Origin: Candidatus Edwardsbacteria bacterium RifOxyA12_full_54_48
Lineage (GTDB): Bacteria > Edwardsbacteria > AC1 > EtOH8
Assembly (NCBI GenBank): GCA_001777915.1
Contig: MFFN01000004.1
Location: 661,632-725,631 of the forward strand
Direction: 5' to 3'
DNA length: 64,000 nt
The translations under genes and the position numbers were made by a program. The notes beneath the pieces were generated by a model that was not told the origin of the DNA, made no database searches, and saw nothing but the letters and a program-made list of their open reading frames with translations. Numbering within the stretch: the first letter of the stretch is position 1; each line of letters opens with the position of its first letter. Below, piece by piece: positions 9,916 to 54,776 of this stretch.

Positions 9916-10344
9916 TCCGCCGGACAAAATAATAAAATGCCTTGGGTCATCAAGAGGCGACGAAACAACGCGGTGCAATATTCAGGCTGCTTAGGGCCGG
10001 GCCCAAACCAGCCGGGATTGAAAACAGAATCTTTTGTCTGGTAGGAGATTTACTTTAAAGTGTGACATTTAATAAAATATGTGCCATAATGTCGCAAATT
10101 TATTAAATCTATAAATAACAATACCTTAACATATCTAATCCTTTCGACAATAAGAGCCAGTGAGACATAATGTCTCATTGGCTTTTGTGTTTTAATATAA
10201 AGGCAACATATATAAATTATAACATATTGTGATGCATCGTCTTGATTAAATAGAAAAAGAATTGCTTCTTGGCATGAATATTGGAAACCTTAATAAATGA
10301 CAGTCATTTTAAAGTCATTCAAGAAACAGCTAATTTGAAAGCAG
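9916..10344 (+). promoter_or_regulatory. Intergenic region with a three-site enhancer-like array and a sigma54-like promoter
   Basis: No gene is seen here. TTAAAGTGTGACATT at 10055-10069 is identical to 53219-53233. Three 17-bp sites related to TGAGACATAATGTCTCA lie at 10061-10077 (left half only), 10080-10096 (14/17) and 10161-10177 (exact). The last is flanked by further pairing bases (10156-10182) and followed by TTTTGTGTTTT, so it could also terminate the 8359-9915 transcript. TTGGCATGAATATTGGAA at 10269-10286 resembles a sigma54 -24/-12 element but has GG instead of GC at -12. Confidence 0.6.
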
Positions 10345-10446
10345 ATGAAACTCAGTCTCCGGTGGTTCCCACGGGAATCGTTCCAGATGTTTGATCACTT
10401 AGCGGTACCAAAGGCCCATCCAGCTTCCATGACAAAGGTGGCATAA
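10345..10446 (+). CDS. Possible 33-aa leader ORF before the LCAT-like gene
   Basis: An ORF starting MKLSLRWFPRES and ending SMTKVA stops one base before the ATG of the hydrolase gene. It lies about 50 bases downstream of the expected start point of the sigma54-like promoter. The ribosome-binding site is weak (GAAAG) and there is no recognised domain or signal peptide. It may be a translated leader that couples to the hydrolase, or chance. Confidence 0.3.
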   Translation: MKLSLRWFPRESFQMFDHLAVPKAHPASMTKVA

Positions 10447-10447
10447 A

Positions 10448-11692
10448 ATGGAGCAGAATATTTATCCCGTGATATTTGTCCCCGGGATCATGGAGACGGA
10501 GTTGTCCGGCCCCTGCCCGTTGGACCACCGGGCGGCCTGCCATCCGACCTTCGACAAGATGACGGCCGATCTTGATACCGTGAAGCTGGACGACCATGGC
10601 GATTACCACCGCCCGCCGAACCGGCGGATATGCCGGAATGAGGTGTTCTCTTTGGTTTACGGCGAGATGATTGCCGCGCTGCGGGAGAGCCTGCCGCTGG
10701 ATCAGGAAGAATGCGCCAGGGTCTATGTCTTTCCCTACGACTGGAGGCGCTCCATCAGCCATAACGCCGCCCGGCTGGCGGATTTCGTGGAGCGGATCAT
10801 CCGCAGCAGCCAGGCCCATCCCCCGTACCGCCGGCGGGGGATCAAGCCGGACAAGGTGAATATCGTCGGCCACAGCGTGGGGGGATGTCTGGCCAAGCAT
10901 TACGCCACGGCGCTGTTGGGCGAGGGCCGGGTAAATCGGATGGTGATGCTGGCTTCCCCGCTACGGGGCTCATTGTGCGCCTTGAAGCACCTGATAACGG
11001 GCGAAACCTGGTTCTTCGACTGGTTGAACGGCAAAAGTCAGCGGCGCTATGCCCGGACCCTTCCCGGGATATACCATCTGCTGCCCTATGACGGCTTTGC
11101 CAATCCAGAGGAGAAGCTGATGTGGCCCAGCCCGGCGGCAGAGAGAAGGGGCCAGCCGGTCAATATCTTCGATCCCTCCGGCTGGCAGGACAATGTGGCC
11201 GCCCAGGTCGGGCCGGAGGTGTTGGCCAGCCACCTGGACAATGCCTACAATTACTACCGCAACGCCCGGGATTTCTCCCCGGAGTTCCGAAAGAACGTCC
11301 TGATGGTTTACGGCAAGGGGGAGCGGACCCTGCGTGAGGTCAATATCGGCAGCCGCCAGCCGGTGGAGTACAACTTTCCCCGGGAGGATGGTTGCGGCGC
11401 CATCGGCGACGGCACGGTGCCGGCGGTCAGCACCTACAGCCAGGGCATCTACCAAGCCTGTGTCACCAAGAAAAAGATGGGTGACTGGGAGCTGGACCTG
11501 GGTCGGGTGGCCGGTTTCCATGCCTCTTTCTGCGCCTACGACCTGGTCCAGGACCTGGTGATATCCTTCCTGACCGGAAGGGTTATCAGGACGGTGCGGA
11601 GGGAATTCAAGCTGACCGAGATAGAACAACTGCCCAAGTTCACTCCGGACCAGGTGGACAAGCTGGACCGGGAGCCCATCTGCCGGTTCTGA
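10448..11692 (+). CDS. LCAT-like alpha/beta hydrolase (lipase/acyltransferase)
   Basis: The 414-aa protein resembles the lecithin:cholesterol acyltransferase family. It has the oxyanion region VIFVPGIMETEL, YVFPYDWRRS near 93-101, the nucleophile elbow GHSVGG (Ser143), a probable acid Asp321 in DGTVPAVS and a probable His358 in GFHASFCAYD. There is no signal peptide, so it is likely cytosolic. GGTGG lies 7 bases before the ATG. It is preceded by the enhancer-like array at 10055-10286 that also occurs behind the sigma54 activator gene near 53 kb, so it is a candidate target of that activator. Confidence 0.8.
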   Translation: MEQNIYPVIFVPGIMETELSGPCPLDHRAACHPTFDKMTADLDTVKLDDHGDYHRPPNRRICRNEVFSLVYGEMIAALRESLPLDQEECARVYVFPYDWRRSISHNAARLADFVERIIRSSQAHPPYRRRGIKPDKVNIVGHSVGGCLAKHYATALLGEGRVNRMVMLASPLRGSLCALKHLITGETWFFDWLNGKSQRRYARTLPGIYHLLPYDGFANPEEKLMWPSPAAERRGQPVNIFDPSGWQDNVAAQVGPEVLASHLDNAYNYYRNARDFSPEFRKNVLMVYGKGERTLREVNIGSRQPVEYNFPREDGCGAIGDGTVPAVSTYSQGIYQACVTKKKMGDWELDLGRVAGFHASFCAYDLVQDLVISFLTGRVIRTVRREFKLTEIEQLPKFTPDQVDKLDREPICRF

Positions 11693-11865: not shown

Positions 11866-12201
11866 ATGAACGGCAATCCCGAAGAGGAAAAAACCAAGGA
11901 CGCCCCGGCGGCGGCCAGGATCGTCAAGGGACCGGGGCTTTTTGAGACCACCCGGGGGAATGCCTCCGAGGCCTATCTCATCCTGCGCAGCAAGGGCAAG
12001 ACCGTCCCATATGCCTGGGTGAAGTCAGCGCAGGAATCCAGAAAAAAAAGGCAGGACGAGCTGGGGATCAAACTGAAAGAGAAAAGCCTGGACGCCTTCC
12101 CCATATTGCGGCAATGGGAGAGTGCGCTGGAGAAGGAACGGTTTTATTACGGGCTTCGGGCCCTGTTCGATCTGGAGCAGAACGGGGAGACCAAGCTGTA
12201 G
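11866..12201 (+). CDS. Hypothetical protein, 111 aa
   Basis: A soluble, charged protein with no recognised family. The N-terminus is acidic and Pro/Ala-rich; the rest (from LFETTRGNASEAYLILRSKG) looks alpha/beta with two probable helices ending at LFDLEQNGETKL. AAAGGA precedes the ATG. It sits 173 bases after the hydrolase and 62 before the zinc-ribbon gene and may share a transcript with them. Confidence 0.6.
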   Translation: MNGNPEEEKTKDAPAAARIVKGPGLFETTRGNASEAYLILRSKGKTVPYAWVKSAQESRKKRQDELGIKLKEKSLDAFPILRQWESALEKERFYYGLRALFDLEQNGETKL

Positions 12202-12263
12202 ACAGGCAACAGGGGACAGGGATCAGGACGGCAAGCATCAATGAATATAATGGAGGCTCCACC

Positions 12264-12899
12264 ATGGCATCTTCAGGCAATCAAGCGCAAAAGTACAAAT
12301 GCCCCTGCGGCAAGAGTTATTACACCGTCCACAGCTACTACGATCAGGCCGGCTTGTTTGACGAGCATTGGGAGATGAACTGCTGCCGATGCAAACAGCG
12401 CTACCAGCTCAGTTCGCTCCTCAAGGAGAGCGGCCGGGGCCTCAACGAGGCCTATCTCTGGGCCCCAATAAACATCTTCAGCGAGCTGGCCATCGTGGAG
12501 GACCAGTTGCACCGGGCCCAGGGCGATATGCTGGCCCTGGCCCGGGAGCTGTATCTGGATCGCTGGCTTGGGCACTTCTCCGGGGTTAAGGCCAGAAAAG
12601 ATATCTGGCGGCGCCTGACCGACGGCGGGAAACGGGAGCCCAGCTACCGGCTGTTCGTTCGTTCGGCGCCCCGGGACAATCTGGAGGACTATCTGCAGAG
12701 ATACTTCCACTATTTCAACGTGGACCATATCCTGGAGAAGCTGGGGGTGCGGGACATCCGGCTGGATGAGATGAAAGGCCGGATCGCCGAACTGCAGACC
12801 GGCCGGGAAAGGGCCCAGGGCCTGCTGAGGATGGAAGGTTTTGCTGGACGGAGCGAATACCGGTGGGGATCATCAATAAAAACCGATAGGCGTGTATAG
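12264..12899 (+). CDS. Zinc-ribbon hypothetical protein, 211 aa
   Basis: The N-terminal 45 residues carry cysteines at 13, 15, 40, 41 and 43 (CPCGKSYY and NCCRCKQRY), consistent with a zinc ribbon. The rest is helical and Arg/Asp-rich with no recognised domain. The ATG at 12264 was chosen because GGAGG lies 7 bases upstream; a longer in-frame ORF from 12114 would overlap the preceding gene and lacks such a site. Role unknown; a DNA- or RNA-binding function is only suggested by the ribbon. Confidence 0.65.
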   Translation: MASSGNQAQKYKCPCGKSYYTVHSYYDQAGLFDEHWEMNCCRCKQRYQLSSLLKESGRGLNEAYLWAPINIFSELAIVEDQLHRAQGDMLALARELYLDRWLGHFSGVKARKDIWRRLTDGGKREPSYRLFVRSAPRDNLEDYLQRYFHYFNVDHILEKLGVRDIRLDEMKGRIAELQTGRERAQGLLRMEGFAGRSEYRWGSSIKTDRRV

Positions 12900-41948: not shown

Positions 41949-42536
41949 ATGAAAATAAATATAATATTTTTTAGTTTACAAATGCTATTATTTGTAAACA
42001 TAGCTGAGATATATGCTCAACAAAGTAAAGCAGCTTTGCATAATGATAAATCGACAGCAACATCGAAAAGCATTGAAAATCTATGCAACACAATTCCATC
42101 AATGCCGGAAGAAGGAAAAATACAGGCTGTAATAAATTCTTTTTTTATGGGTATTGTGCTTGGGGACAGTGATAGAGTAGTGGCAGCATGTCGTTTTTCT
42201 AAAGAAGATAAATCAAAAAGACAGTCGCTTGTAAAATTTACACAATTGTATAAAAATGTAAAATCCAACGAGGGGAAAGGCAGTCAATATATAGAAAAAC
42301 CATTGTGGGATTTGATCTGGAAAGTAAATAAAACTATAAATATAAAAAATAATATTCAAGACATACCTGTCCAAATAGGGTTTAAGACGAGCCCTAAAAA
42401 ACAAATAATGGTAAAAGTAACAAAATCTGGAACCTTGTGGTATATAACCGATTATCAGCAAATTATTAATTTTATTGAAGCAAATAGAAAGATTATAAAA
42501 TCTATAAACAAGGATTCACGAAATGAAATGCAATAA
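41949..42536 (+). CDS. Exported protein, unknown, 195 aa
   Basis: The signal peptide is KINIIFFSLQMLLFVNIAEIYA. The mature part is basic and helical, with no recognised family. The ATG at 41949 follows GGGGA with good spacing; 41937 is an alternative. It overlaps the start of the giant secreted protein by 14 bases, so the two are coupled. Confidence 0.6.
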   Translation: MKINIIFFSLQMLLFVNIAEIYAQQSKAALHNDKSTATSKSIENLCNTIPSMPEEGKIQAVINSFFMGIVLGDSDRVVAACRFSKEDKSKRQSLVKFTQLYKNVKSNEGKGSQYIEKPLWDLIWKVNKTINIKNNIQDIPVQIGFKTSPKKQIMVKVTKSGTLWYITDYQQIINFIEANRKIIKSINKDSRNEMQ

Positions 42537-45500
42537 TTTTATATTATATTGTTTGATATTATGTATATCAACTATGTGCTTAGCCGAGCAAACAACTTTG
42601 ATTTTTGAAACAGCTGTTGATGTTGATAATACTTGGCCAATACCTGATATTTATTCAGATAAAATATGCGATAATCTAATAAAAGATAATATGGGTGGTT
42701 TGATTTTATTTAAAATTCCCTGGGGTGTTGCCGCACTTTATAAGCAAAGAACGGATGGGAAGTGGTTGGCTTCGACAATAATCGCAGATAATGGATTCAA
42801 TAGGCTAGTGTGTGGTGAGAGTTATAATGGTTCGATAAATACATATGGCAGTTATGGAACCGGAAATGGGCAATTTCAATTTCCACAGGGAATTGCTGCG
42901 GATGTTAATGGAAATATATTTGTTGCAGATTTTCGGGGAAGTCGTATTGTATGGTTAACCTACGACATTACTACAAATACAATATCATTCAAACAAAATA
43001 TAACGGGAGGGAATCTTCTAAATCCTAAAGATGTAGACATTGATGATCGAGGCACTCCAACAGATCCTGCTGACGATGCAATATGGGTTACGGACTGGAC
43101 GGGAAATAAATTGATAAAATATAAGCGTTCTGGCAATATTTTTATATATGATAGGTCTATCAGCGAATTAAATGGTATTGAAATGCGCACACCATCAGGC
43201 ATAAGTCTGGTATCATTTACGGAAGAGGAACCCAGGCTTTATGTAATCAATGATAATGGTAAAAAGATAAATGGTTGGGAGGCGCCAACGGGTAGTTGTT
43301 TGACCTCTGTGGAAACTGATCATTTTGGAAACGTCTGGGCTGTTGATGCAATCGGCAAAATACATAAATTTGGATACTATTTAAATTATTTAACATCAAT
43401 TGGAAATGCAGGTTCAAATGTGGGACAGTTTTTGGTGCCTAAAGATTTTGCTGTAGCCAGATCCTTAACAAACAATGGTAATTTTTATAAGTCTGGATCT
43501 GTTGTGATTTCGGAAAAATGGACAAGTAATACAGGCGGACAAACATGGGTTATTGGAGCTGATATTGTTAACCTAACGGGAACGTATGATGAACATTATC
43601 GAATAGTTTCCTGGGATTGTATAGTGACAGATAACGCAGAAATCACAGCTCAAGTGATTAATTATAATACCGGGGCAATAGTAGCTACTCTTATTGATGA
43701 AGGATGGCATTTCGCAGGTGCATTGCGCCTGAACTGGTATGAACCTCCCGAAACATATGGCAAGTATTATTTGAGGATGACAATTACATCTTCATATAGC
43801 AGCAATGGTGTGCCTACGGTGAATAATAAAGTGATCACGAGTAGTATCATTGAAGTGCCAGTTGGTTATGCAATAAATTTCCATTCTGGTTTTGAGTCGA
43901 ACTATATTTGGCCAATAGATGCTGAGTATCCTGCTTGTGAAAACGTGGTTGAATATAATAATAATATTACTTCATACGATGCTTCGGGGATCTGGGCTAT
44001 ACCTATGTGGTATATTCCACATAGTGGATTATATTCTTATTTAGTTAAAGGTTATGATCAAAGCAGCTCAACAACAAATGATTATATATATTGGCGTTTA
44101 TTTAATCGTGACATCAAAATAACAGAGAACTCGGTTTTATATTTTTGGAGAAGGGTAAGAACTTCACCTGGTGGTCAAGGCCGGATTTTTATTGATGCAA
44201 AATTAAAAAATGGAAAAGTAATAAGGGATATTTTTAATAATGGCACTTATTTGTGTGATCAGAAGGGGAAGAGAATACATCCTTCTTTTGCGCGACCTGA
44301 TCCTGTAGATTGGAATTCATGGTGTTTCTATGCGATAAATTTAAGCTCTTTAACGGGAGAATATATTGATTATATTATGATAGGATATGATGATGATAAT
44401 AATGAAAGTGGCTCTTTTGAAGTGTTTTTTGATGATGTTACAATAGAACAATATTATCCGTATAAAAATCAGTGGTATGCCGAGAGGTTTGGTGGGAATT
44501 CCAAAATAGATTTAAGTTTTAATACTGATAATTACGAAGGTGGCGCCGAACTTAAACTTAATGTTCTGGAAACAACAAGTCCGGGCACATGGGTTAACGG
44601 ACCATTGCTGCGTAATAATATTGATGATGTGCCGGTCGCTCCCAATATGCGCGTAACCTGGGAACAGTATGACAGGAACCATTCATTATTATTTGAATTA
44701 TTAGTTCAAGGCTCAGACGGACAGGATAGATGGCTGATATACGGGGCTAATGCCAGCAATCATTGGGATACTGACCAGGGCTTTGTTGATATGGGTATCG
44801 GGCAAAAGTTACCTGAAGGATCTGGCATGCCGCGCGCCAGTAGGTTAAATGTTTGGGAAAAATTCAGCCGCAATATTAATGACGATTATTTTGCAGAATT
44901 TGACGTTTCAGCATCAAGCATTAAAGAGCTTAGGTTAGGCCACTTCTCATATACCGGTTGGAGCGTTGGTGATCACGGCGGAACGGTAAAGAATATAGAG
45001 TTTACGGATGTTCCTGTGACTTCTTTTGTTAGCGGTTTCGAAGAAGGGCAATATACGCCCTTTGCCGACACTACTTATGAAAATACCATTGTTCCATATT
45101 TTGCAGGTCCTGTAGGCGCGGAAAACGGGGTAAACCCTCATGCGGGTAATAAAATGTATAAAATCCAGGGAACAGATGTTAATTTACCTATTGCTAAAGT
45201 TGCGGCCGTATCGGGGGCGATTGACGGTAAGACCTTTTGGAATGTTTATGATCCATATGTAAAAATCGGAAAAGGGTCTTGCCTGTCATTCTGGATGCAT
45301 GTATATGCATCGCCAACAAATTATGGACAGATATTTGTCGATGCTACTACAAAGAGCGGAAAGCGTTTCAGTCAACTTATCGCACCTTCGAATATTTATC
45401 TCTGCGATAACAGCGGCATGAGAATAACCCCATCGGTTCATAAAGCGGCCATGGGCGAATGGGTCAACTATGTGGTCAACCTATCCAACAGTACCGCTTA

Positions 45501-48000
45501 TCCCACGGGGTTGGAAAACGAGATCATCGATCGATTGATGATAGGTTATGACGATGCTGTAAACGACCAGAAGGGTAATTTTGTAGCGTATATTGATGAT
45601 ATCCAAATATTACCCAACTTGCCGGTTTACGATCAATGGTCGGTAGCTCATTTCGGCGGGGATCCCAATGCTACTATCGGCTGGCAGGAACAGACTGGAG
45701 GCGGAGCCAAACTTGTTATGGACAATAATGGCGGTTCGGTGGGTTGGGTTAATGGACCATGGGCGATAAAAGAATTATTTTTGCCGGTATCTGTTCTTTT
45801 TGACGGTATCGTCAATTGGAGCCAATATGATCCCACTCATGCCTTATTGTTTGCCTTGAAAATATCCGGCGCCGATGGTAAGGAAAGATGGTTATGTTAT
45901 TCATCCAACGGCCAGAACCACGCCGGGGAAATAAGCAACGACGGGACTTTTGGATATGTCAATATGGAAACGACAGAAGCGTATAATGTTTGGCAGGATT
46001 TCAGCAGAAATATTTATACTGACTATAATAACCTTTTTACTGTTGTTCCAAGAAAAGTTGTTGCCATTGGATTAGGCCACTTCTCGTATGCTTCCTGGGA
46101 TGGTGATTTAGGCGGTGCAGTTAGAGACATTGCTTTCCGCCGCCAGGATCGCAGATGGTATACATTAGTTGATATTCAAAATGAATTGGCATTGGCATAC
46201 AATAATGCTGAAAAGATTACAGTATCCACGGATGGACTGCTGCATTTAAGCTATTCTGGGGAAGACAGTGTTTATTACACTTCCTCTGGGGACGACGGTC
46301 AGACTTGGACGACACCATATGCTATTGAAGGCGGCAGTTTGCCCGTCATTGCCGTTGACAGTAAGAATGCACCGGCTATTTCCTGGATAAAACAATGGGA
46401 ACCAAACCTGGGTGGTGGTGTATATTTTAGCTATAAAACTGCTTCCGGATGGAGCCCTGCAGATACATTAACCTTTATGGATGCTGTGCCATGGGATTAC
46501 ATCTGTGGGTATTCGCCACCGTCAATGTCCATAACAAATGATACAGTATCTCTGGTTTATGAGAAATCGTATGGTGGTGGTATTCCACCATACATATCAA
46601 AGGGCTGGGCTTTGCATCAAATAAGATTTGCCCTAGGCAATGTCAACGCTAAAAAAGATACAGTATTAGACCAATATACTTATACAGTGCCGCCTCCCTG
46701 GGCTGTGCCAACATCTGCTTCAATGGCTACGGATTACAAGGGAAATGATCATATCGCCTGGCATAAGCTAGGGAAGATATATTATTCGATGCGGAAAATA
46801 GACGGGACATACAGTCCGATAGTAGAAATATCCGGACCGGGTTCGGCGGAAAACCCCTCGATAAATATATCCGGTGTAGCCAATGTGGTCTGGGAAGAAG
46901 ACGGTGATATATACAAACGAACCGGTTATGACCAGAAATGGGATCCGATCATAAATATCAGCCAGTCTTCATCTGCATCGATGATGCCTTATATATGCGG
47001 CAGCGATATTCTATGGACCGAAGATGTCTCGAACGATTATGAGGTATTTAAGACTACATACAGCACGGAAAAGATGACATATGTTGCGCCGGATAATTTG
47101 TCGAGTACCGATTATGCATCAATATTCCCCCATGAATTTAAAGTACAGACAGCAATTGGCACAAAAACGTATTGCATTTGGGCGGAAGAGATTGAACCAG
47201 CGGTGCTGTGGGGTCTGACTTTTATGGTAGATACAACGGCCTTGGAGCCTGTTTATGCTGTTGACGTCGGACAAGAAACGCCTTCAATATTCAATGTGCA
47301 AAGAAATGGCTTCATTATCTATGAATCGCAAGCCAAAACTGACGACAATGCAGTAGAGCCTTATAAGACCGTAGATTATGATTCTACGGAATTGATATAT
47401 TGTTTTGATAACGTTGATCCCAATAAAAAGCATAAGATATTGCTTAGTTTTTATCATGAAAGCGGTGATGATATTAAGATGAAACCATATGTCAACGATT
47501 TGCCGCTGGGTGAGATAAAGGTGAAGTCCGGTGAAGAAGTGATATTGGACAAGCAGTTATCGGAAGCAAGCAATAGGGATGGTCAGATAATAGTGCGTAT
47601 TGAGAAAAGTAAAGGAACAATGGCTGTTTGCGGAAAGATACTTATTCATGAAGTCATCAAGGGCAATGGAAACGGGAAGGGTGGCGCACAGCTTGCCGAG
47701 CTTGGCAACATTGGTCAAACCTTTATATACAAGCTATTTCAGAACGCGCCAAATCCGTTCAACGGCCAGACCAGGATCAGCTACCAGTTGGCAAAACCCG
47801 GCAATGTCAGCCTGAAGATCTACAATACGCTGGGGCAATTGGTAAACACCCTAGTTGAGGGCCATCAGCAGCCAGGCATTTATGCCGCGATATGGAATGG
47901 TAGGGACAATTCAGGGAGAACAACAGCCAACGGGGTTTACTTCTATCGTTTGGAAGCAGGCGATTTCAAGGCAACAAAGAAAATGGTCATTCTTAAATAG
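42523..48000 (+). CDS. Giant secreted protein with NHL-type propeller and C-terminal sorting domain
   Basis: The 1825-aa protein has a signal peptide. An NHL-like propeller spans roughly 100-310 (GTGNGQFQFPQGIAADVNGNIFVAD). Two tandem modules of about 370 residues start at SGFESNYIW and SGFEEGQYTP and share LYFW/LSFW, IFIDA/IFVDA and MIGYDD. A second propeller-like region lies near 1210-1560. The end (FQNAPNPFNGQTRISYQL, then NGVYFYRLEAGDFKATKKMVILK) is a FlgD-like/type IX-style sorting domain. It is probably exported to the surface, perhaps by a type IX-like system not in this window. Codon bias shifts from AT-rich to more GC-rich after about 45 kb. Confidence 0.85.
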   Translation: MKCNNFILYCLILCISTMCLAEQTTLIFETAVDVDNTWPIPDIYSDKICDNLIKDNMGGLILFKIPWGVAALYKQRTDGKWLASTIIADNGFNRLVCGESYNGSINTYGSYGTGNGQFQFPQGIAADVNGNIFVADFRGSRIVWLTYDITTNTISFKQNITGGNLLNPKDVDIDDRGTPTDPADDAIWVTDWTGNKLIKYKRSGNIFIYDRSISELNGIEMRTPSGISLVSFTEEEPRLYVINDNGKKINGWEAPTGSCLTSVETDHFGNVWAVDAIGKIHKFGYYLNYLTSIGNAGSNVGQFLVPKDFAVARSLTNNGNFYKSGSVVISEKWTSNTGGQTWVIGADIVNLTGTYDEHYRIVSWDCIVTDNAEITAQVINYNTGAIVATLIDEGWHFAGALRLNWYEPPETYGKYYLRMTITSSYSSNGVPTVNNKVITSSIIEVPVGYAINFHSGFESNYIWPIDAEYPACENVVEYNNNITSYDASGIWAIPMWYIPHSGLYSYLVKGYDQSSSTTNDYIYWRLFNRDIKITENSVLYFWRRVRTSPGGQGRIFIDAKLKNGKVIRDIFNNGTYLCDQKGKRIHPSFARPDPVDWNSWCFYAINLSSLTGEYIDYIMIGYDDDNNESGSFEVFFDDVTIEQYYPYKNQWYAERFGGNSKIDLSFNTDNYEGGAELKLNVLETTSPGTWVNGPLLRNNIDDVPVAPNMRVTWEQYDRNHSLLFELLVQGSDGQDRWLIYGANASNHWDTDQGFVDMGIGQKLPEGSGMPRASRLNVWEKFSRNINDDYFAEFDVSASSIKELRLGHFSYTGWSVGDHGGTVKNIEFTDVPVTSFVSGFEEGQYTPFADTTYENTIVPYFAGPVGAENGVNPHAGNKMYKIQGTDVNLPIAKVAAVSGAIDGKTFWNVYDPYVKIGKGSCLSFWMHVYASPTNYGQIFVDATTKSGKRFSQLIAPSNIYLCDNSGMRITPSVHKAAMGEWVNYVVNLSNSTAYPTGLENEIIDRLMIGYDDAVNDQKGNFVAYIDDIQILPNLPVYDQWSVAHFGGDPNATIGWQEQTGGGAKLVMDNNGGSVGWVNGPWAIKELFLPVSVLFDGIVNWSQYDPTHALLFALKISGADGKERWLCYSSNGQNHAGEISNDGTFGYVNMETTEAYNVWQDFSRNIYTDYNNLFTVVPRKVVAIGLGHFSYASWDGDLGGAVRDIAFRRQDRRWYTLVDIQNELALAYNNAEKITVSTDGLLHLSYSGEDSVYYTSSGDDGQTWTTPYAIEGGSLPVIAVDSKNAPAISWIKQWEPNLGGGVYFSYKTASGWSPADTLTFMDAVPWDYICGYSPPSMSITNDTVSLVYEKSYGGGIPPYISKGWALHQIRFALGNVNAKKDTVLDQYTYTVPPPWAVPTSASMATDYKGNDHIAWHKLGKIYYSMRKIDGTYSPIVEISGPGSAENPSINISGVANVVWEEDGDIYKRTGYDQKWDPIINISQSSSASMMPYICGSDILWTEDVSNDYEVFKTTYSTEKMTYVAPDNLSSTDYASIFPHEFKVQTAIGTKTYCIWAEEIEPAVLWGLTFMVDTTALEPVYAVDVGQETPSIFNVQRNGFIIYESQAKTDDNAVEPYKTVDYDSTELIYCFDNVDPNKKHKILLSFYHESGDDIKMKPYVNDLPLGEIKVKSGEEVILDKQLSEASNRDGQIIVRIEKSKGTMAVCGKILIHEVIKGNGNGKGGAQLAELGNIGQTFIYKLFQNAPNPFNGQTRISYQLAKPGNVSLKIYNTLGQLVNTLVEGHQQPGIYAAIWNGRDNSGRTTANGVYFYRLEAGDFKATKKMVILK

Positions 48001-48296: not shown

Positions 48297-48492
48297 CATT
48301 AAAAAGCCGGTTTTTCTTGTTGCGCAAAAGACTATTTTCATGTAATATTATCGGGCCGTATTTTGCCAGAAGAAATGCCCCGGCAGACCGATGTTTCTTC
48401 TGGGTGGACCGGCCCATGGGAAATTCAGGCGGTCTGCGGCCGGCCAATGTCTGGTGTTTTCAATTGACAGAATGATCACGGGAAGGAACGAT

Positions 48493-51400
48493 ATGGAGAA
48501 CGACGGATTTCCCCGGCGCTATAAGATGATCCGGACCCTGGGGCAGGGCGGCTTCGGTCGGGTATTCCTGGCCAGGGACCTGGCGGCCGGCAGGGACGTG
48601 GCATTGAAGATGGCCTCCGGGCCATTTTGTCATTTGTTGAGGAACGAGTACATCCGGCTGCACCGGTTCCGGCATCCCGGGCTTCCGGAGGTTTACGACT
48701 TTTCGCTTTCCCCCCAAGGGGAAAGCGGGTATCTGTCCCTGGAATACTGCCCCGGGGAGTCCCTTTCCCAGATGCTGGCCCCGGGGGCCATGCCCCCGGC
48801 CGACGCCCTGCCCATTCTGGAAAAGCTTTGCCGGATCCTGTCGTACCTTCATCAGCGGGGCCTGGTCCATGGTGATATAAAACCCGATAACGTCATGGTC
48901 TCCGGCCTTTCGGTCAAATTGCTGGATCTGGGACAGGCCGGAACCGCCGGGGCCGCCCCGGGCTGCGGCACGCCGGCCTATGCCCCGCCCGAATCGCTGT
49001 CGGGACAGGGCGCCATTATCCGGGCGTCAGACGTCTACAGTCTGGGCCTGCTGCTGTTCCAGATGCTGACCGGGGAACTTCCCCGCCCGGAGGTCAGGCT
49101 CAACCGGAACGAGCCCCTGGCGGTCCAAATAAAAGAACGCTTTTCGGGGCCGGTGGCTGATCTGCTGGTAAAAATGCTTCGTTACGATCCCATCGAGCGG
49201 TACGATTCTGCCGGGTCTCTGCTGGAGGCGGGCTGCCAGGCCGGGATATTTTCCCCGGATCAGGAACTGGTGAGGTTCGCTTACGCATCGTCCCCGGCGG
49301 CTTTGCGGGAAGCCTTGGGTCATGATGACCCGGCCAAACCACGTCTGGTGAAGCTGGCCGGCGGGCAGGGAAGCGGCCGGACCGGCCTGTTGAAAGAGAT
49401 CGATTTTATCAGCCGGCTCAGGGGCCGGGACAGCTATTACCTGGACCTGAAAAGCCTCCCGAAAAACGATATCCCGGATTTTGATTTCGCCGAAGGCGCC
49501 CTTCTTCTGATCGACCATATAAAGCCTTTCGATCCCCGGCTGGAAAAACTGTCCGGGACGGGGCGCTGGAGCATAATCTGCGCCGGAGGGGGCCCCGACG
49601 ATCCTTCAGTCCCATCCACGGCGCGAGAGATTTCAATTGGGCCGGCCACGGAAGATCTTTATCGCCGTATCTTAAAAGGCTGTTTTGAGGATATCAGCCT
49701 CTATGACCTGGGTCTGCTGGCATGCCGGATTTGCGAGGAAACCGGCGATGATGTTGGGCGGGCCGAGGAGCTGATCCAATTTTACCTGCGGAGCGGGTGG
49801 ATCTCAAAAAAGGAGAAGATCCGGCAGGTCAAATGGCCGGAGATCCTGGCCAATCAGGACCTTCCGGAAAACGGTGCCAGGAGGCTGTCCGATTGGTGGC
49901 AGGACCTGTCGGCCGACCAGAAAACCCTGGCTGGGGCCGCAGCCCTGGGCCAGCTTCCTGCCGGGCAGCCCCTACCGGACCGGTTAAGATACAGGATCGT
50001 AAAACGGGGCGAAAGGTACGCCATAAGCGATGAACAATGTTTAAGGCTGGTGATGGCCGGCTGGGGGCCGGACCAACGCCGGGAACTGATCGGACAGATC
50101 GAGCACCAGCCGGACCCCACCAGCGATTTTTTCTGCCGGGAGGCATACCGGACCTGGTTGCCGGATGGCGAACAGCGGATCCGCCTGACCACCCGGCTGT
50201 ATGCCAAGATCCGGCAGCGGGGCGACATCCATCGCACCCTGTTGTTGGCCCGGGAGCTTTTGGCAACGGAAACAACCGATGGGGCCTTTTACCGGGAACT
50301 GGCAGAGCAGATCACCGACCTGTGCTGCCGGATGGGCCGCTGGAGCGAGGCCCTGGAGTCTTGGCAAAAACTGGAAAATTCCCGGGGCCGGGACTGGAAA
50401 TACTGGAAGCGGCTGTTCTATATCATTTCCAACGGCAAGTTTTATGAGGAGGCGGAGAACAAGATAAAACTTCTGGCCGGGAGGATCGGTGAGCTGGATC
50501 CGGAATTGGCCCTTTTAGGCCAGAGTTATCAGGGATATCTCCGGGGGATCAGGGACGGCTCCGATGATTCGGACCGGATCCTGCGGGAATGCCTGAGCAG
50601 AGGAAAGGAACTGGGCAGCCCCAGGGCCATGATGGCTGCCGCCGAGCTGCAGGGCATATATCATTATCAGAAAAGCCGCTGGGATCTGGCCATAGAACCC
50701 CTGGAGACGGCAATGCAGCTATGGAACCAGGATACCGCTGGTTATGAAAAATCCCGGATCCTGGCTTTTTACGGGAACACCCTGGGGATACTGGGTTCCC
50801 CGGAGAAGGCCAGGGACAGACTGGAAGAGGCCGTCTCCCATGCCGCCTCAGCGATCCCGGATCAGGCCCTGGGAAAGATGCACTACAGCTTGGGGTCGGT
50901 ATATTTTAACCTCCGGGATTGGGACCGGGCCGAGGAGGCATATCGGCAGAGCATGTACCACCTGATGGGCGTCGGCAGCCAGCAGTATTTAACAGAAGCC
51001 CTGACCGGCCTGGCAAACATCGCCATGAACAAGGGCGGCTATGCGGCGGCCCACCGGTTCCTTCTGGCGCTTTTGGCCGGAGCCGGCAAAGGGGACCGGG
51101 AGCGCGGCCTGACAGCCAGTCTGTCCAACCTGAGCATCGTCGAAAGCCTGTTGGGCCAAAAGGAGCTGGCGGCAATCCATATCGCCAAGGCGCTGGAGAT
51201 CAGCCGACGACCGGACAGCGTTTGCGGTCCGGCGGCAGTGCTGAAGGTCAGGGCCGGTCTGGAGCTGGAACAGGGTAAGTGGCCCCGGGCCATTGCCACC
51301 TATCAAGAAGCAATGGAGAATTATCACCAGCTGGGCATTGCTCCGGATCCCGAGATATTGGCCGACCTGTCCTTTGCCGAGCACCGGAACGGCAATACCA

Positions 51401-53229
51401 GCCTGGCCCGGGAATACCTGTCCCGGGCGAAAGAAAATCCCCAGAATAACAGCATATTAACCGGTCAGATAAAAATCGTGGAGGGCATTCTGCAAATGGT
51501 CGATGATAACACCGGAAAACAGGGTTTGAAAACAGCGATCGAGGCCGGACGGGAGCTTATGGAGAAAGGAGATAGATTCAATGCCGCCAACTGTTGGCTG
51601 CGGGCGGCCGAGGAAGCGGTCGAGCGGGGCCGCCCGGAGTTGCTGGAAAAAGTCCTGCCCTGGCTGGTCCGGGCCGAATCTCTATTCATCGAAATGGGAA
51701 CCCCCGATCACTTGGGCAGGGCCCGGGAGATGATGCTTCGGGCGAACCGCATCTGCTTCGACCGGCCGGACCGGGAAACATTTTCACCAAACCTGCTGAA
51801 CGGCATCTATCGGCTGGCCGGCCTGCTGGCCACCGAAGTGGGCCAGCGGGATCTGGCTGGCGAATCGCTCAAGCTGGCGCTGGAGATGACCGGCGCGGAA
51901 CGCGGGGCCCTTTTCCTGCTGGACCAAGACCTGCAGATAACCATGGTCGCTCAGATAGACCTGGATGACCAGACCAGAAAGGACGCCCTGGAATTTTCGG
52001 CCACCGCCGTCCGGGCCGCCGCCGGCCAGGGCCGGCTGATCATATCCAATGACGCCTCTTTGGATGAGGCCTTCCGCTCGCGGCTCAGCGTGCAGCGAAA
52101 CATCATCCGCTCGCTGCTGTGCGTCCCCCTGCATTTTCGGGAAGGGGCGGCCGGGGCCGTCTATCTGGACTCCCGGGTCACCAGCGGCCTGTTCGGGGAC
52201 AGACAGAGGGAGTTCCTGCTGGCCCTGGCCGGCATCATCGGGGCGGTCCTGGAAAGCGGCCAGCTGATCAGCCGGCTCCGTTTCGATCAAGCGGCGGCCG
52301 GATCCCAGGAGAACGACATCTCCGACTTGATCATCGGCCAATCTCCCCCGGTCAGGCAGATGATCCAGCGGATCAAGACCGTTGCCCAGGCGGACATCAC
52401 CGTCATGCTGGACGGCGAATCAGGATCCGGCAAGGAACTGGCGGCTTTGGCGGTCCACAGATTATCGTTCCGGGGGAAGCGCAAGTTCCTGGCCCTGGAT
52501 TGCGGCTCGCTTCCGGAGACCCTGTTGGAATCGGAGCTGTTCGGTTATGTTAGGGGTGCCTTCACCGGCGCCGGCAAAGACAAGCCCGGACTGTTCGAAT
52601 CGGCCGATGGCGGCACGGTATTCTTGGACGAGATCGCCAGCGCCAGCCAGGCGGTTCAGTCCCGCTTGCTGAGGGTGCTGGAGAGTGGGGAGATCAGAAG
52701 GGTGGGAGAGTCCGAGAGCCGGACGGTGGACGTCCGGGTGATCTGCGCCACCAATAAAGATCTGGAGACAGAGATCAACGAAGGCCGTTTTAGGGAGGAC
52801 CTGTACTATCGGCTTAAGGTGATGACCATTCCCATTCCCCCGTTAAGGGAAAGGAGCGGAGACATACTGCTGTTGACCGAATATTTCAAAGAAAAGTATT
52901 GCCGCAAATTCGGCAAGATCGGGCTCCGGTTTGATTCCGAGGCCAAGCAGCAGATGATCGGACATGTCTGGCCGGGCAACGTCCGTGAATTGGAGAATAC
53001 CGTCCAAAGGGCGGTGCTGCTGACGAATAAAAAGGCCATCACCCCCAGGGAACTGGAGATATCCCCGGGTTTGAGCGAAGGCCAGAATAAATATCAGAAC
53101 GATCGTCGCCCGGATATACTCGAGGCCGTTAAAAATTTTAATGGAAATATCTCTCAAGCGGCCAAAGCATTAGGGGTATCCCGCCGTCATCTGTACCGGC
53201 TGATGGAAAAACACAATATTAAAGTGTGA
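48493..53229 (+). CDS. Ser/Thr kinase - P-loop - TPR - GAF - sigma54 AAA+ - Fis regulator
   Basis: A 1578-aa soluble regulator. Residues 10-260 form a Hanks-type kinase: GQGGFGRV loop, VALK lysine near 38, HGDIKPDN near 126 and DLG (for DFG) near 143. A second P-loop GGQGSGRTG (about 290) and ALLLIDHI suggest a STAND-like ATPase. TPR-like helices fill about 570-1085, a GAF domain 1119-1256. The sigma54 activator domain has GESGSGKE (about 1307), GAFTGA (about 1354), FLDEI (about 1377) and FREDLYYRL. A Fis-type HTH ends the protein. All core motifs look intact. The ATG at 48493 follows GGAAGG. Its last codons enter the enhancer-like array. Confidence 0.93.
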   Translation: MENDGFPRRYKMIRTLGQGGFGRVFLARDLAAGRDVALKMASGPFCHLLRNEYIRLHRFRHPGLPEVYDFSLSPQGESGYLSLEYCPGESLSQMLAPGAMPPADALPILEKLCRILSYLHQRGLVHGDIKPDNVMVSGLSVKLLDLGQAGTAGAAPGCGTPAYAPPESLSGQGAIIRASDVYSLGLLLFQMLTGELPRPEVRLNRNEPLAVQIKERFSGPVADLLVKMLRYDPIERYDSAGSLLEAGCQAGIFSPDQELVRFAYASSPAALREALGHDDPAKPRLVKLAGGQGSGRTGLLKEIDFISRLRGRDSYYLDLKSLPKNDIPDFDFAEGALLLIDHIKPFDPRLEKLSGTGRWSIICAGGGPDDPSVPSTAREISIGPATEDLYRRILKGCFEDISLYDLGLLACRICEETGDDVGRAEELIQFYLRSGWISKKEKIRQVKWPEILANQDLPENGARRLSDWWQDLSADQKTLAGAAALGQLPAGQPLPDRLRYRIVKRGERYAISDEQCLRLVMAGWGPDQRRELIGQIEHQPDPTSDFFCREAYRTWLPDGEQRIRLTTRLYAKIRQRGDIHRTLLLARELLATETTDGAFYRELAEQITDLCCRMGRWSEALESWQKLENSRGRDWKYWKRLFYIISNGKFYEEAENKIKLLAGRIGELDPELALLGQSYQGYLRGIRDGSDDSDRILRECLSRGKELGSPRAMMAAAELQGIYHYQKSRWDLAIEPLETAMQLWNQDTAGYEKSRILAFYGNTLGILGSPEKARDRLEEAVSHAASAIPDQALGKMHYSLGSVYFNLRDWDRAEEAYRQSMYHLMGVGSQQYLTEALTGLANIAMNKGGYAAAHRFLLALLAGAGKGDRERGLTASLSNLSIVESLLGQKELAAIHIAKALEISRRPDSVCGPAAVLKVRAGLELEQGKWPRAIATYQEAMENYHQLGIAPDPEILADLSFAEHRNGNTSLAREYLSRAKENPQNNSILTGQIKIVEGILQMVDDNTGKQGLKTAIEAGRELMEKGDRFNAANCWLRAAEEAVERGRPELLEKVLPWLVRAESLFIEMGTPDHLGRAREMMLRANRICFDRPDRETFSPNLLNGIYRLAGLLATEVGQRDLAGESLKLALEMTGAERGALFLLDQDLQITMVAQIDLDDQTRKDALEFSATAVRAAAGQGRLIISNDASLDEAFRSRLSVQRNIIRSLLCVPLHFREGAAGAVYLDSRVTSGLFGDRQREFLLALAGIIGAVLESGQLISRLRFDQAAAGSQENDISDLIIGQSPPVRQMIQRIKTVAQADITVMLDGESGSGKELAALAVHRLSFRGKRKFLALDCGSLPETLLESELFGYVRGAFTGAGKDKPGLFESADGGTVFLDEIASASQAVQSRLLRVLESGEIRRVGESESRTVDVRVICATNKDLETEINEGRFREDLYYRLKVMTIPIPPLRERSGDILLLTEYFKEKYCRKFGKIGLRFDSEAKQQMIGHVWPGNVRELENTVQRAVLLTNKKAITPRELEISPGLSEGQNKYQNDRRPDILEAVKNFNGNISQAAKALGVSRRHLYRLMEKHNIKV

Positions 53230-53345
53230 CATTGTGTAAAAAGTGAGACCCAGGGACACATATTTTGTTACTTAAGTAAAATGAACAAGTTATAATATAT
53301 TATAGTCGTTTAATTAAAGCGACTGAGACATAATGTCTCAGTCGC
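53219..53345 (+). promoter_or_regulatory. Three-site enhancer-like array behind the sigma54 activator gene
   Basis: Sites of 17 bp lie at 53225-53241 (TGTGACAT half-site), 53244-53260 (11/17 to the consensus) and 53324-53340 (TGAGACATAATGTCTCA, exact). Centres are 19 and 80 bp apart; at 10 kb they are 19 and 81. The last site is extended to 13-bp arms and followed by TTTTTGTTTTTTT, so it also looks like the terminator of the activator gene. Confidence 0.65.
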
Positions 53346-53425
53346 TTTTTGTTTTTTTCTCCCATCTGAACCACCGTGAAATGGTAAAGACCGTAAAATC
53401 AATGAGTTGTAATAAATATATATTT

Positions 53426-53443
53426 TTGGCACGATTAATGAAA
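53426..53443 (+). promoter_or_regulatory. Sigma54-like promoter for the 47-aa peptide
   Basis: TTGGCACGATTAATGAAA has the -24 GG and its TTGGCACG matches the consensus, but GA replaces GC at -12. It aligns with 10269-10286 as TTGGCAYGAWTAWTGRAA. Confidence 0.5.
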
Positions 53444-53492: not shown

Positions 53493-53636
53493 ATGAAAAA
53501 ACTGATTTCCTCTTTACTGCTGGCAATTCTGCTGGCTTCCCTGGCTGGAACCACTATCGGCTTTGCCGATGACGATCCGCCCCCCACCCCTAACGTGGTC
53601 TACCCGGTGCCTCCGCCTCCTCCGGACGAATTTTAA
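53493..53636 (+). CDS. Small exported proline-rich peptide, 47 aa
   Basis: The peptide has a full signal sequence (KKLISSLLLAILLASLAGTTIGFA). The mature part is only about 22 residues, acidic then Pro-rich (DDDPPPTPNVVYPVPPPPP). GGAGA precedes the ATG. It is preceded by the sigma54-like promoter and the three-site array that follow the kinase/sigma54 activator gene. It is therefore a candidate output, and perhaps a secreted signal or envelope peptide, of that regulator. No family is recognised. Confidence 0.65.
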   Translation: MKKLISSLLLAILLASLAGTTIGFADDDPPPTPNVVYPVPPPPPDEF

Positions 53637-53717: not shown

Positions 53718-53906
53718 ATGTACGATAGAATCCACATATACCATTTTCTGCTTAACAACGGCAGGGAATATTATGGAAAGGTGCTGGCCCACGACCGGGA
53801 CAAGATCGTGATCAGCGCCCTGAGGCTGGCCGAGCAGCCTCGCCGGGTGATCCTGTACCAGAACTCAATGGTAATGGCCGAAAGGATGGATGGACGGGGC
53901 TTTTAA
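53718..53906 (+). CDS. Sm/Hfq-like small protein, 62 aa
   Basis: The sequence follows the Sm fold pattern. FLLNNGREYYGKVLAHDRDKIVI resembles the Sm1 motif of Hfq (hydrophobic, NG, G, Asp, then strand). RVILYQNSMVMAERM resembles Sm2 (YKHAIST in Hfq). An RNA-binding or ring-forming role is possible, but this is pattern matching and the Hfq YKHA is not kept. GAGGAA lies 7 bases before the ATG. It overlaps the next gene by 17 bases, so the two are coupled. Confidence 0.5.
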   Translation: MYDRIHIYHFLLNNGREYYGKVLAHDRDKIVISALRLAEQPRRVILYQNSMVMAERMDGRGF

Positions 53907-54543
53907 GGCCGGCTCAAACCCGGCCCCGGTCGGATCATCAGGGCCAGGCGGTCAGGAGGCGGATAAAACCATTCTGCTGGCGGGGGACCAGAAAGCCATG
54001 CGGGAGGTGGAGGCTTTTCTTCTCCAGAACAAGGGTTATGCCGTTCTGACCGCCGACAGCATTAGTCGGGCCGAACAGCTTTTTGGAGAGAACCGGCAAG
54101 CGGTCCGGCTGTTGCTCACCGACCTGGTCCTGCCGGACGGCAGCGGCGTCGAATTGCACCGGAAATTGACCGGGATCAAGCCGGAGTTGGTGACCCTGAT
54201 AGTTTCCGGCAGCCGGCCCGGCCCGGGAGAGATCCCCCGGGAAGCCCAATTCATGAAGAAGCCGTTCGCCCTGGCGGAGCTGCACCAAAGATTGACCCAG
54301 GCCCTGGAACGCCCCGATGGTTTCGGCAAAAAGCCGCCGCCGGTCTGCGGGCTGGCTCATCGGTTTCCGGCCGATCAGACCGATCTGTTTGCCCGGGGAT
54401 TTGAATTTGCCTGTTGTGATTCCCGGGATTGCCCCTACAAGAAGGTACACCAGCGCCGCAAGTACTGCTTCTATCCACGGGCCGGCGGCGACGAGAATTT
54501 AAACGAGGAGGTTAACGGATGTTCTTTTCCGAGCAGACCCTGA
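53890..54543 (+). CDS. Receiver-domain protein with Cys-rich tail
   Basis: Residues 26-140 form a response-regulator receiver: phospho-acceptor Asp78 in LLLTDLVLPDGSG, Ser106 and the Lys of FMKKPF (123-124). The usual N-terminal acidic pair is reduced to one Asp (33). There is no known output domain. The tail has cysteines at 153, 175, 176, 181 and 193 (CCDSRDCPYKK, KYCFYP), a possible zinc or iron-sulfur site. AAAGGA lies just upstream of the ATG. It overlaps both neighbours. Confidence 0.75.
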   Translation: MDGAFKAGSNPAPVGSSGPGGQEADKTILLAGDQKAMREVEAFLLQNKGYAVLTADSISRAEQLFGENRQAVRLLLTDLVLPDGSGVELHRKLTGIKPELVTLIVSGSRPGPGEIPREAQFMKKPFALAELHQRLTQALERPDGFGKKPPPVCGLAHRFPADQTDLFARGFEFACCDSRDCPYKKVHQRRKYCFYPRAGGDENLNEEVNGCSFPSRP

Positions 54544-54776
54544 AAAAAGCCTGGGCCAGGGCCGAAGGAAAGTGTGAATCGACCAAGGTGGTTGATGGGC
54601 GTAAAGTGCCCTGCAGTCGCGGCCTGCATTGGGACAAGCACGGCATGCTGCATGAACCGGAGGGCTGGCTTGCCCGCCATCGGGTGCAACTGGCCAACGG
54701 TATCATCGACATCGCCGCCAACTGTGAGGTTGTTTGCCGGGAGTGCCACCGGCAGGCAACATTGGAGACCGGCTGA
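54519..54776 (+). CDS. HNH-like zinc protein, 85 aa
   Basis: Cysteines 19, 32, 69, 73 and 76 and His77 (KCESTK, PCSRGL, VVCRECHRQ) give the pattern of a small HNH-type zinc finger nuclease or its inactive relative. The start overlaps the receiver gene by 25 bases; AGGAGG lies about 9 bases before the ATG. Whether it cuts DNA cannot be told because the central catalytic His is not clear. Confidence 0.55.
   Translation: MFFSEQTLKKAWARAEGKCESTKVVDGRKVPCSRGLHWDKHGMLHEPEGWLARHRVQLANGIIDIAANCEVVCRECHRQATLETG

Follow-up and report, generated by a model that had tools for sequence, protein, structure and literature searches.

A predicted sigma-54 enhancer–promoter array with an embedded terminator-like hairpin precedes an LCAT-like hydrolase unit in Candidatus Edwardsbacteria

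The stretch of DNA analysed here (the window) comprises 64,000 nucleotides of Candidatus Edwardsbacteria bacterium RifOxyA12_full_54_48, whose genome has 2.74 Mb; coordinates that begin with C4 or C6 are positions in that genome. It was compared with other genomes of its family, ten in all, which fall into the genera g1 (the source genome, G000, with G001, G002 and G003), g2 (G004 and G007), g3 (G005) and g4 (G006, G008 and G009). Near 10 kb, an array of short sites precedes a unit of three genes:

10055..10069, + strand: site A, TTAAAGTGTGACATT, with the half-site TGTGACAT at 10061-10068
10080..10096, + strand: site B, TGTGCCATAATGTCGCA, an imperfect palindrome with a 14/17 match to site C; predicted upstream activator-type site
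10150..10188, + strand: 18-bp intrinsic-terminator-like hairpin with the T-rich tail GTTTTAAT, containing site C; its 37-nt core folds at -23.6 kcal/mol
10161..10177, + strand: site C, TGAGACATAATGTCTCA, an exact 17-bp palindrome inside the hairpin; predicted promoter-proximal activator site
10269..10286, + strand: sigma-54-like promoter TTGGCATGAATATTGGAA, that is TTGGCATG-AATA-TTGGAA, with a good -24 element and a -12 element without the C
10448..11692, + strand: LCAT-like alpha/beta hydrolase, the first conserved gene of the unit (PF02450, 34.6 bits, cut-off 21)
11866..12201, + strand: 111-aa protein with no assigned family, following the hydrolase (83-90% identity)
12261..12899, + strand: third of the unit's genes; its homologues in G001, G002 and G003 follow the 111-aa gene (presumed start, at the onset of the homology)

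The first-pass annotation had placed four elements between 10055 and 10286, and all four are there; it had missed that the palindrome sits at the heart of a terminator-like hairpin. Within the family, hydrolase orthologues occur in genus g1 only, and the 111-aa gene lies close downstream of the hydrolase in G001, G002 and G003 as well. The 33-aa open reading frame at 10345, proposed earlier as a possible further target, is not conserved in G002, and the proposed tie to lipid or acyl chemistry, whose sole basis is the LCAT/alpha-beta-hydrolase family match, is conjectural.

A second array of the same kind lies near 53 kb, at the end of the gene for the presumed activator and in front of a unit of small genes:

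48391..53229, + strand: presumed activator of 1612 aa, with protein kinase, TPR, GAF, sigma-54 AAA+ (Sigma54_activat) and Fis-type HTH domains
53219..53260, + strand: sites A (53219-53233, overlapping the activator stop) and B (53244-53260)
53316..53348, + strand: hairpin with site C (53324-53340) and the T-run TTGTTTTTTT
53426..53443, + strand: promoter TTGGCACGATTAATGAAA
53493..53636, + strand: gene for a 47-aa secreted proline-rich peptide, the first of the unit
53718..53906, + strand: 62-aa Sm/Hfq-fold protein
53890..54543, + strand: response-regulator receiver protein
54519..54776, + strand: HNH-like small protein, below the Pfam cut-off

The 62-aa protein has an Sm fold in an AlphaFold2 model (pLDDT 84), with Listeria Hfq as the best PDB match (TM 0.74, E 1.6e-3); since Pfam and NCBIfam gave no Hfq match, it is called "Sm/Hfq fold" here rather than "Hfq". 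No such Sm-like gene was found outside the family among the 386 genomes searched.

The order of elements claimed for the two arrays holds, since 53219-53233 repeats the 15-mer of site A and, further along, 53324-53340 repeats the exact 17-mer. Their spacing, described earlier as the same, is approximately so, with 81 and 80 bp from B to C and 109 and 103 bp from C to the promoter at 10 kb and 53 kb, respectively. The 14/17 site is present at 10 kb, whereas its counterpart at 53 kb, TGAGACCCAGGGACACA, matches at 11 of the 17 positions. Site A abuts site B, with a start-to-start distance of 18-19 bp in the arrays of genus g1, and its 15-mer recurs less exactly in the arrays of G001, G002 and G003. 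Site B has no extended stem and is conserved in G002 at 15/17 positions. With up to three mismatches, the palindromic 17-mer has five matches in the window against 0.08 expected by chance, and its exact form occurs three times in the whole genome (10 kb, 53 kb and C6:350957), a number of exact copies that ruled out uptake-signal repeats. A search with the pattern BSGACATNNATGTCSV returned mostly scattered matches, and an Rfam search of the window matched a tRNA alone.

Four arrays were identified in the source genome, two in the window and two outside it (C6:351 kb and C4:827 kb). More occur in relatives, and 15 arrays from three genera were compared, many of them related by descent and hence not independent. 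The third array (C6:350957) lies between recR and the genes for a type IX-type sorting-domain protein and a 1443-aa RHS-repeat protein, and the fourth (C4:827034-827137), with counterparts in G002 and G003, has the hairpin GCGGGACATTATGTCCCGC and the canonical promoter CGGCACAGGTTTTGC. Three further candidates were rejected, namely C4:79592 (a hairpin that follows a gene and shows neither B site nor promoter), C4:779552 (a weak site inside a coding region) and a site on G003 C18 (without hairpin or promoter). In nine of the ten family genomes, an activator orthologue is directly followed by the palindrome hairpin, a TGGCA-type promoter and a gene for a short exported peptide, and a type-B upstream site was located in all of these activator-adjacent arrays but that of G009. 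G005, the remaining genome, lacks a close activator orthologue, and the hairpin model matches it only weakly.

In 11 arrays, the centres of B and C lie 79.5-82 bp apart, while the intervening DNA diverges; in those of the C4:827 kb type, the distance is 66.5-68.5 bp. Between the hydrolase array and that of G002, the sites are 80-89% identical, compared with 42-57% for the B-C spacer, the C-promoter spacer, the leader and the upstream DNA, and the promoter is conserved in G002 as TTTGGCATGAATCTTGGGA.

The activator-type sites lie 80-200 bp upstream of the promoter, as in enhancer-activated sigma54 promoters. The -24 element TTGGCAYG is conserved, and both the 10-kb and the 53-kb promoters fit it well; in their -12 GC, the usual C is missing. 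The -12 element reads TTGGAA, ATGAAA and TTGAGT at three of the genome's own arrays and is without the usual GC in most arrays; the C4:827 kb array type, G003 (L095) and genus g2 have the canonical TTGC. Taken as a bare motif, the promoter is hardly commoner in the window than expected (12 matches against 11.7 at two mismatches), so what lends the match weight is where it stands in the array. A -24/-12-like site lies 80-150 bp downstream of site C in 15/15 arrays, compared with 0.07 expected from shuffles, a figure that serves as a guide since the search pattern was tuned on the same 15 arrays. In most arrays, the distance from the palindrome centre to the promoter steps by about 10 bp (86-88, 95.5, 105.5 and 117-119 bp). 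The hydrolase array, at 101.5-102.5 bp, is off these steps, which is a weak point of the case together with the many -12 elements that lack the usual C.

The hairpin around site C has the characteristics of an intrinsic terminator, with a stable GC-containing stem, a short loop, a U-run directly 3' and compensatory changes. The hairpins of the arrays fold at -14 to -25 kcal/mol compared with -3 to -6 kcal/mol for shuffles, and the T-run (U-run in RNA) lies on the promoter side in 15/15 arrays. Over the 13-bp stem of 14 aligned hairpins, 95% of positions are paired and 9 of the 13 pairs covary, compared with 35-51% pairing in slid controls. The GACA..TGTC core is fixed or nearly so, and the outer arms vary yet stay paired. 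A symmetric dimer site always yields a foldable inverted repeat whose inner pairs covary for that reason alone, and in a rival reading, which is improbable, the palindrome is purely a protein site whose hairpin is a by-product of symmetry; the outer arms thus matter as the test. Beyond the 17/18-bp site, 5.2 of the 6 positions flanking C are paired, compared with 3.1 by permutation and with 2.4 of the 6 flanking site B, and the flanking pairs at C number 78 against 47 +/- 6 by permutation (maximum 71 in 20,000 permutations). Moreover, where the 53-kb array and its G002 orthologue differ in the outer arms, A-T pairs have become G-C pairs or the reverse while the core is intact, and the T-run is always toward the promoter.

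The palindrome might, conversely, do no more than terminate the upstream gene, which would make the array a repeated terminator without an enhancer, considering that all arrays have a perfect or near-perfect stem with a T-run and that other terminator-like hairpins of these genomes share the CTTTTTTGTTTTT style of ending. However, those other hairpins, among them one that follows a tRNA gene in G006, share the tail style, lack the GACA..TGTC core and score far lower with the hairpin model. The core stays invariant or almost so while the arms vary freely, and it recurs in site B, which has no extended stem. The B-C spacing is fixed, whereas the distance from the upstream stop codon to the hairpin is about 87, 240 and 560 nt at three of the genome's own arrays, suggesting that the hairpin belongs to the module and not to the upstream gene; a terminator and nothing else is very improbable. 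Instead, the promoter-proximal enhancer site appears to double as an intrinsic terminator that insulates the promoter.

The strongest evidence for the predicted co-regulation of the hydrolase comes from the way the operon is divided. In G001 and G003, the activator gene is followed by a single array and, behind it, an undivided operon of genes for the peptide, the Sm-fold protein, the response regulator, a Cys-rich small protein, an extra gene in G003, the hydrolase, the HNH-like protein (here after the hydrolase) and the 111-aa protein. In the source genome and in G002, the operon exists as two units, each with its own array in front: the 53-kb unit has the peptide, Sm, response-regulator and HNH-like genes, and the 10-kb unit has the hydrolase, the 111-aa protein and its neighbour. 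The expectation that the array would be conserved before hydrolase orthologues is thus borne out, directly in G002 and, in G001 and G003, by the operon headed by the activator-adjacent array. One array over the joint operon in two genomes and an array on each half in the other two point to the hydrolase as a second target of the same control, and the earlier proposal of a second target of the same activator is very probably right, judged from the conserved array and the operon split.

Several sigma54 activators are encoded in each of the 10/10 family genomes, and the source genome has one copy of rpoN and seven AAA activator matches, the neighbouring activator among them. The latter was chosen as the regulator because its gene adjoins an array, lying directly 5' of it, in 9/9 genomes that have it, because G005, without a close orthologue, has only weak hairpin matches, and because the recognition helix and the outer operator letters (TGAGACAT, CGGGACAT, TGCGACAT) change together by genus. 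The same adjacency and the same joint change by genus make it very improbable that a CRP/FNR-type regulator binds TGTGA-like sites here in place of the neighbouring activator; some B sites do resemble TGTGA-N6-TCACA, such as TGTGACATATGTCACA in G003, but the part conserved in every genus is GACA..TGTC and not TGTGA..TCACA.

A hairpin with a U-tail is the kind of RNA end bound by Hfq, and an Hfq-like protein is encoded in the co-regulated unit. A sigma70 promoter over A and B (GTGACA-17-CATAAT at 10062-10090) could then start a short RNA that ends at the hairpin and is a partner of the Sm/Hfq-fold protein. Against such an RNA, for which the odds are very long, the -10-like hexamer is missing in several arrays, and the sequence between B and C shows no conservation from one array to the next. 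Candidate sigma70 promoters overlapping A/B and C were rejected, as the CATAAT within the palindrome accounts for these matches and other arrays lack them.

The preferred reading, to which a probability of roughly 80% is given, is that 10055-10286 is an enhancer-promoter module through which the activator encoded at 48391-53229 controls the hydrolase unit (from 10448 to about 12899), with site C doubling as an insulating terminator. Activator dimers would bind the adjacent sites A and B as well as site C, about 80 bp further on, and by DNA looping would reach the RNA polymerase-sigma54 at TTGGCATG-N4-TTGGAA, about 100 bp downstream. Site C would also form the stem of an intrinsic terminator pointing toward the promoter, at which transcripts coming from upstream (the activator mRNA at 53 kb, those of unrelated genes elsewhere) would stop. 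With read-through stopped in this manner, the target genes would be expressed only when the activator fires. Binding of the activator to A, B and C, use of the promoter by sigma54 and termination at the hairpin are all predicted from sequence.

NtrC-type sigma54 enhancers consist of paired palindromic upstream activating sites 80-200 bp upstream of a -24/-12 promoter. The arrays resemble them in the number of sites, the distance and the promoter class, and differ in that the promoter-proximal site lies inside a terminator-like hairpin and that the -12 element is often non-canonical. The functionally nearest known system is the PEP-CTERM PrsK/PrsR/PrsT regulon, which was found by comparative genomics and likewise combines a Fis-type sigma54 activator with a repeated module of an activator motif and a -24/-12 motif, placed ahead of genes that encode exported proteins and have large stretches of non-coding DNA upstream (PMC1569441, 2006). 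Its components differ: PrsR carries a receiver domain and its histidine kinase is a separate protein, whereas the activator here is a kinase-TPR-GAF-AAA-HTH fusion that scores 322.6 bits against the PrsR model TIGR02915, below the cut-off of 502.6. The arrays here have three sites and an embedded terminator-like hairpin, with an array beside the activator gene, and the targets encode the proline-rich peptide, the Sm-fold protein and the LCAT-like hydrolase; those targets that were searched gave no PEP-CTERM match. In the uptake-signal-sequence terminators of Neisseria and Pasteurellaceae, an inverted pair of DNA-recognition words also forms an intrinsic terminator (PMC1852404, 2007), so that a recognition word doubles as a terminator there as well; however, uptake signals number hundreds to thousands per genome and serve DNA uptake, whereas the element here has one to four copies, each tied to one promoter module.

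In a literature search, which fell short of the whole literature, no description of a terminator with an enhancer site built into it turned up, and nothing relevant on kinase-TPR-sigma54 activators or on regulation in Edwardsbacteria was found with the same partial coverage. The arrays would define a small, sharply bounded regulon of a kinase-TPR-sigma54 activator, in a phylum that has seen hardly any functional study. A terminator made from an enhancer site would be a compact route to strict activator dependence, and the array on both operon halves clearly exemplifies how an operon can break up with its regulatory module retained. For the family as a whole, the balance tips slightly toward a single element serving as enhancer site and terminator, in a module copied to new targets and possibly involved in autoregulated peptide signalling via the TPR of the activator.

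A short exported peptide is encoded after every activator-adjacent array (53493-53636; orthologues L044-L046, L049-L051 and L018), and its mature part is acidic and then proline-rich (DDPPP...PPPP). The leader is a Sec-type signal peptide in g1 and g4 and a double-glycine leader (MKVLDKAMLSRIKGGDTIDPPLPPPPPPIIP) in g2, and C39 peptidase genes are found in 2/2 g2 genomes. It is possible that the product is a signalling peptide whose export route has switched. Downstream of the third array (L005:3734-8862, C6), the RHS-repeat protein is of the RHS/YD type and is accompanied by the type IX-type sorting-domain protein. Beyond the fourth array (L139:1530-2555, C4:827 kb) come DNA rich in repeats (ACTTTCTCTT...), which recur nearby, and small secreted proteins. 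Upstream of the activator, the region 42523-48000 encodes a 1825-aa NHL-repeat protein with a FlgD_ig/type IX sorting domain.
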